From positions 1 through 64,000 of the forward strand of contig NZ_PYGJ01000003.1 of the NCBI RefSeq assembly GCF_003014475.1: 64,000 nucleotides of DNA, written 5' to 3'. Position 1 is the stretch's first letter. Every line of letters begins with the position of its first letter. This DNA comes from Shimia abyssi (GTDB taxonomy: Bacteria > Pseudomonadota > Alphaproteobacteria > Rhodobacterales > Rhodobacteraceae). Below are positions 59,245 through 62,485 of this stretch, piece by piece. The translations under genes were made by a program, and so were the position numbers. The notes beneath the pieces were generated by a model. The model saw nothing but the letters and a program-made list of their open reading frames with translations. It was not told the origin of the DNA and did not search any database.

Positions 59245-60612
59245 TTAACCTGCTCCGAATGTCTCTGCCACAAAGCTGGCCAGGTCGGTCTGACGTTTGA
59301 GCGTAATGCCCTCTACCGTCAGCGCCTTGCCGCCCTTCGGAGCAATTGCGGATGAGAAACCAAGTTTTTGGGCTTCTTTCAACCTGTTTTCTGTCTGACC
59401 GACGGTTCTAAGGGCCCCTGAGAGGGCGATTTCGCCAAAAACCACCGTATCAGCGGGCAAAGCAGCGTCTTCGCGGGCGGAAAGCAAGGCGGTGGCGACG
59501 GCGAGGTCGGCGGCGGGTTCGGAGATTTTCATGCCACCGGCGACGTTGAGATAGACGTCGAGGCCCGTAAAGGGGATGCCGACACGTGCTTCGAGCACGG
59601 CGAGAATCATTGCCAGACGTCCACTATCCCAGCCCACGACCGTGCGGCGCGGCTGGCTGTGGGGCGAGGGTGCAACGAGGGCTTGAAGTTCGATCAAAAC
59701 CGGGCGGGTGCCTTCGATCCCGGCAAAAACTACGCTGCCGGGGCTGGGCTGGCCGCGATCCGAAAGGAACAGCGCCGAGGGGTTGCTAACCTCGGCCAAG
59801 CCTTTGCCGGTCATCTCGAAAACGCCGATTTCGTCCGCTGGACCGAAACGGTTTTTGACGGCGCGCAGGATGCGGAACTGGTGGCCGCGCTCGCCCTCGA
59901 AATAGAGCACGGTGTCGACCATGTGTTCCACCACTCGGGGACCGGCGATCTGGCCCTCTTTGGTGACGTGACCCACGAGGATCACTGCGATGCCGTTGCG
60001 CTTGGCAAATGCCGTCAGCTCATGGGCGGCGGCGCGTACCTGAGAGACCGAACCGGGCGCAGAGCCGACACTGTCGGACCACATGGTCTGGATCGAATCG
60101 ATGATCACAAGCTGGGGTTTTTCGGCGTCCAACGTGGTAAGGATGTCGCGCAGATTTGTCTCTGCGGCAAGCTGGACCGGGCTGTGGGTGAGCCCAAGGC
60201 GTTGAGCGCGCATCCGCACCTGAGCGTTGGCTTCTTCGCCGGAAACATAGATTGTTTTCAGTCCCATACGGGAAAATCGTGCGGCGGCTTGCAAGAGAAG
60301 TGTGGACTTACCAATGCCCGGATCGCCGCCCACAAGTGTGGCCGAGGCAGGCACAAGACCACCGCCCAGAACGCGATCAAGTTCAGCCACGCCCGAGACG
60401 GTACGCGGCGGTGGGGCCTCTTCGGTGGTGAGGTCCGTTAGTTCGATCCGGCGACCGCGCGCAGTGCCCAGTGAGGCAGCGGAGGGGCCGGTGGAGATCG
60501 GCTTATCCTCGACGATGGTGTTCCATTCGCCGCAGGCTTCGCAGCGCCCCGCCCATTTGGTGGAAACATCACCGCAGGCGGTGCAGGAGAACTGGGTTTT
60601 TGACTTTGCCAT
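59245..60612 (-). CDS. radA: DNA repair protein RadA
   Basis: This RecA-like branch migration helicase has 455 residues. It has the N-terminal zinc finger (FSCTACGDVSTKWAGRCEACGEW), Walker A GGDPGIGKSTLLLQ, the diagnostic VKNRFGPADEIGVFEM, and a C-terminal Lon-like domain (GRLAMILAVLEARVGIPFTGLDVYLNVAGGMKI). The start at 60612 fits the conserved N terminus. It is 44 bp from cvpA, probably in one operon with pqiA. Confidence 0.95.
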   Translation of the reverse strand: MAKSKTQFSCTACGDVSTKWAGRCEACGEWNTIVEDKPISTGPSAASLGTARGRRIELTDLTTEEAPPPRTVSGVAELDRVLGGGLVPASATLVGGDPGIGKSTLLLQAAARFSRMGLKTIYVSGEEANAQVRMRAQRLGLTHSPVQLAAETNLRDILTTLDAEKPQLVIIDSIQTMWSDSVGSAPGSVSQVRAAAHELTAFAKRNGIAVILVGHVTKEGQIAGPRVVEHMVDTVLYFEGERGHQFRILRAVKNRFGPADEIGVFEMTGKGLAEVSNPSALFLSDRGQPSPGSVVFAGIEGTRPVLIELQALVAPSPHSQPRRTVVGWDSGRLAMILAVLEARVGIPFTGLDVYLNVAGGMKISEPAADLAVATALLSAREDAALPADTVVFGEIALSGALRTVGQTENRLKEAQKLGFSSAIAPKGGKALTVEGITLKRQTDLASFVAETFGAG

Positions 60613-60629
60613 GTTCTCGTTTTGGACCA

Positions 60630-61058
60630 CTAACGGCGGCGCGTCAAATGGCTAATCACAAGAGAGGCAAGAATACAGGCGGTAAAGAGATAAAGACCCC
60701 AACCGGTTTCAACGGTCACATAACCCGCGCCTTTCACGACGACCACGTAAAGCGCGATGAGAAACACGTCAGCCATGGCGAGTTTTCCCAGAATTTCCAA
60801 TGCTGGCAATACCTTGCGCCGCATTTGTCCGAACTGGATCAAAGCAATCCCGATGACCTTCATGTAGGGCGCGAAGATCGCAAGGAATGTCACGAGCAGG
60901 GCAAGGGCTACGTCACTGGACCAAAGTGATTGCAGGCCAGAAACGATGGAAATTTCCGACAGACCAAAGATGGGCAGGACACCGGCCCGCAGGAGCGGGG
61001 CAAACCATGCGATGGGAAAAAGGACCAGCAGGGTGAGATTTGCGAGGCGTAAAATCAT
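60630..61058 (-). CDS. PqiA-family (paraquat-inducible protein A) membrane protein
   Basis: This 142-residue protein has three to four hydrophobic helices. ILRLANLTLLVLFPIAWFAPLL opens it; SLWSSDVALALLVTFLAIFAPYMKVIGIALIQFGQMRRKVLPALEILGKLAMADVFLIALYVVVVKG matches the single PqiA unit. Full-length PqiA has two such units and zinc ribbons, so this is the short form. 17 bp upstream of radA, likely one operon. Role in lipid transport or envelope stress is inferred from the family. Confidence 0.87.
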   Translation of the reverse strand: MILRLANLTLLVLFPIAWFAPLLRAGVLPIFGLSEISIVSGLQSLWSSDVALALLVTFLAIFAPYMKVIGIALIQFGQMRRKVLPALEILGKLAMADVFLIALYVVVVKGAGYVTVETGWGLYLFTACILASLVISHLTRRR

Positions 61059-61138
61059 GGAAAGAGAGCTAGGCGCGGGGCGGTTCCGGCGCAACCCCTG
61101 TAGTGTTGGTTAACGGGGGGGAGCTGCGAAAAGGCGAC

Positions 61139-61177: not shown

Positions 61178-61349
61178 GCGAATGTTTGGGCGCGCGATTA
61201 TCGGCATCATAAATACCGCGCGCGATGTTACGGCACAAGGCGCAACACATTCGACGGCAGAATCACCGGACACCTGCGCGGGGTTACAGGCGAGGTGAAA
61301 GTATGTGGTAGGGTTACCAGGAGACAGTCATGTTTGAAGGGGAAGGAAG

Positions 61350-61772
61350 ATGGCATTTGTTTCATATCGCGGAGTAGTTGACCCGGCAGATTGTGATTTT
61401 CTGGGGCACATGAATGTATCACGATATTTCGCTGCCTGTTCGGACGCTGTTTTTGCCATTCAGGCCGAAATGGGGCTGACGGCGTAAGACATGCGGCAGG
61501 GGCGCCGCCTGTCATTTGCGGTTGTACATGCGGAGAGCGATTTCCTGTCGGAACTGGCGGCTGGTGATGCCGTTTTTATGGAAACGGAAGTGCTTGGGAT
61601 TGGTCGCAAGTCCATGACATTCCGACATCGGCTTTTTCGCAGCGCGGACGGAATGAAAACGTTTGAAACGATGTTCAAATGCGTTCTGTTGGGACTGGAG
61701 GCGCGACGGGCGGAAATGGTACCGGAAGATGTCCGCGAAAAGGCCGAGGCGTTTGTGGCGGATGTTTCGTAG
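61350..61772 (+). pseudogene. 4HBT-type acyl-CoA thioesterase gene with an in-frame stop
   Basis: The frame begins at 61350 behind GGAAGGAAG: MAFVSYRGVVDPADCDFLGHMNVSRYFAACSDAVFAIQAEMGLTA, then TAA at 61485-61487 (codon 46). It resumes without a shift as DMRQGRRLSFAVVHAESDFLSELAAGDAVFMETEVLGIGRKSMTFRH to a normal end (about 140 residues in all). D-LGHMNVSRY is the hot-dog thioesterase active-site motif, lost if translation restarts at the internal ATG (61491). One nonsense change has therefore broken an otherwise intact gene, unless the base is a sequencing error. Confidence 0.85.
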
Positions 61773-61796
61773 GTCGGACAAATTTGTCCGACCTAC
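61769..61796. repeat. Perfect 28-bp palindrome, sister of the rnj/rhlE terminator
   Basis: Each half is GTAGGTCGGACAAA or its reverse complement, a perfect palindrome. The thioesterase stop codon lies inside it. The core matches 34763-34784. It sits between convergent thioesterase and pyrE and may stop transcription, though no T-tract follows. Confidence 0.8.
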
Positions 61797-61804
61797 CAGA
61801 CGGC

Positions 61805-62485
61805 TCAGGACTTGGCGCGGGCGTCTTGCCAGGCGCGCGGGTCATTGAGGAAGGTTTCAACTTCGGCCAATGTTTCGGCTGAAAACGCGTTTTGGGCGCG
61901 GGCCTCGGCCAGAACATCCCACCATGTGCAGAGATAGTGCAACGCGACCCCGTGATCGCCTAGAGTTTTGGTGGTCTCGGGGAAGATGTCGTAATAGAAG
62001 ATTACAGCCGTATGTCCGCAGGTTGCGCCGGTTTCACGGATGGCATCCACAAAAGACAGTTTAGAGCCGCCATCGGTGGTCAGGTCCTCGACCAGAAGGA
62101 CGCGCTCACCTTCCGACATCGCGCCTTCTATGCGGGCGTTTTTGCCGTAGCCTTTGGGTTTTTTGCGCACATAGGTCATGGGCAATGCCATGCGTTCGGC
62201 CACCAGCGCGGCAAAGGGGATACCGGCGGTTTCGCCGCCTGCGATATTGTCGAACGCCTCAAAACCTGCATCGCGCATCACGGTGACGGTCATGAAATCC
62301 ATGAGCGTCGCCCGGATGCGCGGGAAAGATATCAGCTTGCGGCAGTCGATGTAGCTGGGAGACGGCAGGCCGGAGGCCAGCGTATAGGGCTCGTCCGTGT
62401 TGAAGTTTACCGCGCCGATTTCCAGCAACATGCGAGCGGTCAGGCGGGCGATTTCCTCTTTTGGGGGGAAGGCAGTAGGGATCAT
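61805..62485 (-). CDS. pyrE: Orotate phosphoribosyltransferase
   Basis: This transfers ribose phosphate from PRPP to orotate in pyrimidine synthesis. It has 226 residues; [20 protein letters not shown] is the orotate-binding segment, and [26 protein letters not shown] is the PRPP motif. ATG at 62485 follows AAAGGATAA. Upstream residues in the long frame are not homologous. It follows pyrC by 85 bp. Confidence 0.95.

Follow-up and report, generated by a model that had tools for sequence, protein, structure and literature searches.

A hot-dog thioesterase gene with a single in-frame TAA in Shimia abyssi, probably a recent nonsense loss

Closest described systems and the thioesterase locus

In bacterial genes, in-frame stops have been described as widespread and mostly short-lived, with readthrough suggested for some (PMC7918605, available part). 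The nonsense pseudogenes treated there have one in-frame stop in a conserved frame, as here. In the same part of that study orthologous stops were required in at least two species to reduce artefacts, whereas the stop described below was seen in one genome only. Nonsense pseudogenes are a known and ordinary kind of sequence. Reinitiation near stop codons is treated in the available part of PMC6728339. The papers among the matches listed were general ones, and none of them dealt with the thioesterase gene itself.

The closest relatives at the same kind of locus were orthologues in Ruegeria (e.g. L081, L082, L092), 72–75% identical to the window copy, with the same divergent pqiA-like neighbour and radA nearby; in the tree they fell into one clade with it (support 94/86). 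These were intact, with no internal stop, whereas the Shimia abyssi copy contains a TAA. The window was the stretch of 64,000 nucleotides formed by bases 1–64000 of contig C3, taken from an assembly of 4.73 Mb in 48 contigs. Gene order was radA, the divergent pqiA-like gene, the thioesterase frame and convergent pyrE (Table 1); the genes named radA and pyrE are presumed to be such from their translations.

Table 1. Features of the thioesterase locus, in window coordinates
Feature	Position	Strand	Remarks
radA, neighbour kept with pqiA	59245..60630	-	putative, from translation
pqiA-like gene, divergent neighbour	60630..61094	-	Pfam PqiA (PF04403), E 4.2e-17
Purine-rich, ribosome-site-like stretch GAAGGGGAAGGAAG	61336..61349	+	putative, judged by eye; abuts ATG 61350
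Hot-dog (4HBT_2) thioesterase frame with one internal stop	61350..61772	+	140 codons plus terminal TAG
In-frame TAA, codon 46	61485..61487	+	within predicted short helix 45–50, after central helix 23–40
93-codon frame from ATG at codon 48	61491..61772	+	candidate restart, 3 bases past stop
Palindrome overlapping terminal TAG of thioesterase frame	61770..61795		20-base core, 13 copies in genome
pyrE, convergent neighbour	61805..62485	-	putative, from translation

Translation of the frame gave 45 residues, the only internal TAA, 94 residues from D47 and the terminal TAG. The chance of one stop or fewer in 140 codons is 0.026 per frame, so that openness of the frame alone is weak evidence and the claim of a gene is carried by family matches. 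With X at the stop, the full frame matched Pfam 4HBT_2 (PF13279) at E 5.8e-21 and 75.6 bits, above the gathering score of 25.5. Each piece also matched this profile when searched alone, and in order: the 45-residue piece at profile positions 1–34 (E 4.3e-6, 27.6 bits) and the 93-residue piece from Met48 at positions 41–121 (E 1.9e-10, 41.7 bits). One gene with one break, rather than two chance frames, accounts for these separate and ordered matches, and a preliminary description of the sequence as a thioesterase gene interrupted by a single TAA was borne out. The good ribosome site claimed there corresponds to GAAGGGGAAGGAAG; it lies directly before the ATG, and by eye it is a putative site.

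A model of the read-through protein (pLDDT 95.4) had a strand at 3–9, a central helix at 23–40, a short helix at 45–50, four long strands and a last helix at 126–135. Together with matches to solved thioesterases, it predicts a hot-dog fold, which is common to the YbgC/FadM-type thioesterases (PDB 3ck1, 5v10); Foldseek matched the model to 3ck1 at E 2.1e-10, with a TM score of 0.90 by query length. Against the YbgC/FadM family TIGR00051 the window protein scored 33.2 bits, below the cut-off of 68.7, which makes it a distant relative and not a curated member. The best NCBIfam match (E 4.2e-10) was to the C-terminal part of the carnitine 3-dehydrogenase fusions NF005716; it spanned only profile positions 351–473 of 495, at 38.9 bits against a cut-off of 592, and the window protein is stand-alone, unlike these fusions. 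The frame is predicted to encode a protein of acyl-CoA-thioesterase type (hot-dog, 4HBT_2), with D16 as its putative catalytic residue.

The stop, its relatives and recent loss

The stop is most simply explained by a single nonsense mutation that would recently have inactivated a dispensable hot-dog 4HBT_2 thioesterase gene in Shimia abyssi. Translation would begin at 61350 and end after 45 residues. The resulting fragment would hold the first strand, the D16-GHMN motif and the central helix, would lack most of the sheet, and is expected to be inactive. The locus is likely to be a recent single-lesion pseudogene or an unfixed nonsense allele; we infer the dispensability, the lack of a functional product and the recency. 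The stop, seen in one strain, could be fixed in the species or be an allele of that strain. Of the three readings offered in the preliminary description, very recent loss is the best supported, as judged from intact columns, from other breaks in three relatives and from patchy presence in Shimia.

The stop was compared across a named collection of 48 thioesterase loci. Codon 46 is covered by 47 of them (L127 breaks off upstream of it), and none of the 47 carries a stop at this codon, so the inactivating lesion is absent from relatives. Codon 46 is a variable column among 20 aligned rows. Breaks were found at other places in three relatives. L017, in genome G125 (1501–1905), has a TGA at residue 15; L110 has a stop at residue 111, on a metagenome contig that could itself hold errors; and L126 (3001–3404) is frameshifted near residue 53. 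These suggest repeated loss. Two strains labelled Ruegeria arenilitoris differ, L126 carrying the frameshift and L122 (3001–3405) being intact.

Conservation was scored on 15 rows of the 20-row alignment, without the five that were most distant; eight weaker matches (L023–L030) had been left out of the alignment. Thirteen intact relatives share 43 invariant columns, and the window copy departed at none of these (0/43). The motifs on both sides of codon 46 are intact and in frame, as had been described, and no further decay beyond the stop was found. With all 43 columns kept the lesion looks young; on sequence, the gene may be young as a pseudogene or may not be dead. By this count, neutral change amounts to no more than about 0.07 amino-acid changes per codon (95% limit), and the age of the lesion is roughly limited accordingly. 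Values of dN/dS were low where computable (dN 0.17–0.34), with synonymous sites saturated or undefined in many pairs; they do not date the lesion because they average over time before the stop.

L017 departed at 7 of 43 columns, its stop counted as one, and intact rows at 0 to 7. The highest intact row, L015 (7 of 50), is about as distant as L017, and at that distance the column test separates broken from intact copies poorly. L017 was considered as a yardstick of decay and is only partly useful, since the intact L015 has as many departures. Besides its TGA, L017 differs at six columns that do not vary in the other 14 rows, including two in the GHMN...Y motif region; by its sequence it would be a pseudogene of older appearance within the family.

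Presence of the gene is patchy. Matches at E<=1e-5 were found in 3/25 Shimia genomes, S. abyssi included. The two others were S. aestuarii DSM 15283, with a copy of 72% identity on a contig different from its pqiA, and a genome with a distant copy (29% identity). In a family sample, 26/394 genomes, again including S. abyssi, matched at E<=1e-20. pqiA and radA occur together in all 24 other Shimia; no thioesterase was found beside pqiA in any of these 24 (flank <=1.5 kb, about 370 bases in G013), and the sole weak match in these flanks was L067 (E 0.31). In the named collection 14 of the 48 loci have a pqiA-like gene in the flank, 12 of which also have radA. Three family-sample loci (L005, L006, L012) show the same gene order.

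A tree was built from 47 rows (45 of the 48 named loci, leaving out L126, L127 and L128, with L017 and the window gene). The window gene grouped with 11 pqiA-linked copies at support 94/86, slightly too low for the program's star, and two pqiA-linked Maritimibacter copies fell elsewhere. Recent horizontal arrival was considered and is not supported, since the tree places the gene among pqiA-linked copies from Ruegeria, with the reservations that this fork is unstarred and the Maritimibacter copies lie apart. The simplest history would be vertical inheritance at the pqiA site in the Ruegeria–Shimia line, with loss in other Shimia.

Some points stand against loss. There is no decay besides the stop, so that nothing apart from it marks the gene as dead, and a base-call error in a working gene would give the same picture; the window branch is also long (0.31, against a median of 0.15). 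If loss is accepted, the locus is an ordinary snapshot of it: a patchily kept thioesterase gene, broken variously in relatives, here caught before visible decay.

Error, restart and readthrough as alternatives

The second reading in the preliminary description was a sequencing error. A one-base sequencing or assembly error, with the gene intact in the organism, would account for the stop and for the otherwise intact columns (0/43 changed), and this is possible for a single base, if unlikely. Error over the contig was assessed by searching contig C3 with frames taken from another Shimia (G021), over a stretch of 320 kb. From 86 non-overlapping best frames, 20 were dropped (coverage <80% or identity <50%). 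The 66 genes that remained for comparison, all conserved (23,397 query residues), gave 64 clean and 2 flagged cases with no true break; both flags lay upstream of likely true starts, just before the conserved start region. The listed completeness of the assembly is 100%, and its contamination 0.05. Widespread error on the contig is thus unlikely, with no sign of poor assembly. A first control had flagged 26/98 frames, but overlapping shadow frames were counted in it; contig-wide error was set aside on the non-overlapping set (2/66).

After terminating at codon 46, ribosomes could restart at ATG 61491, and the two products (45 and 93 residues) could associate into a working hot-dog enzyme. The ATG lies only three bases past the stop, a short distance that is expected to favour reinitiation (PMC6728339, available part), the break is placed after the central helix in the model, and both pieces are conserved (0/43 departures). 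But Met48 is present in unbroken relatives, in 10/10 rows of a 10-row alignment and in <90% of 40 rows (39 of the 48 named loci and the window), so the position needs no selection for restart. By eye, no clear ribosome site stands at the usual spacing within the 20 bases before ATG 61491. The break also falls inside the modelled short helix 45–50, no split at the place of codon 46 occurs among the 48 named loci, and neither piece is a complete domain; a Met48 product would have the sheet without the central helix. A working two-piece enzyme is very improbable. We give slightly less credence still to a newborn split gene, in which the stop and the pre-existing Met codon three bases on would have made a two-piece enzyme before any sequence decay. 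Were it true, it would show how one stop can turn a gene into two in a single step; it is not the reading that the evidence favours.

Programmed or tolerated readthrough, yielding a low level of full-length enzyme, is hardly to be expected. Conservation on both sides of the stop (0/43 departures) would fit it, as would the argument, in the available part of PMC7918605, that short-lived in-frame stops are partly read through. The stop is private to the window genome (0/47 covering loci), and is not a conserved one. An unusual stop context and a downstream structure were looked for and not found: TAA ends 26/66 genes here and TAAG, the context of codon 46, ends 8/66 (one of the 66 genes gave no stop within the reach scanned), and RNA folding of 121 bases around the stop was unremarkable (z -0.49). 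Programmed readthrough, the third reading in the preliminary description, is thus not supported. As far as their available parts go, PMC7918605 and PMC6728339 leave readthrough and reinitiation possible in principle, and nothing here favours either. A non-standard genetic code was rejected, since TAA ends 26 of the 66 genes.

A palindromic repeat at the gene end

The terminal TAG of the thioesterase frame overlaps a palindrome whose 20-base core, GTCGGACAAATTTGTCCGAC, has 13 exact copies in the genome, against 0 for a reversed control. No exact match was found in the 24 other Shimia or in 294 other genomes of a family sample, two sets that share at least one genome. TAG or TAA stands before 13/13 copies, and CTA or TTA after 12/13. 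The element is a species-specific palindromic repeat, perhaps terminator-like or mobile. At 6/13 copies a frame open over about 240 bases ends at the adjoining stop, as the thioesterase frame does.
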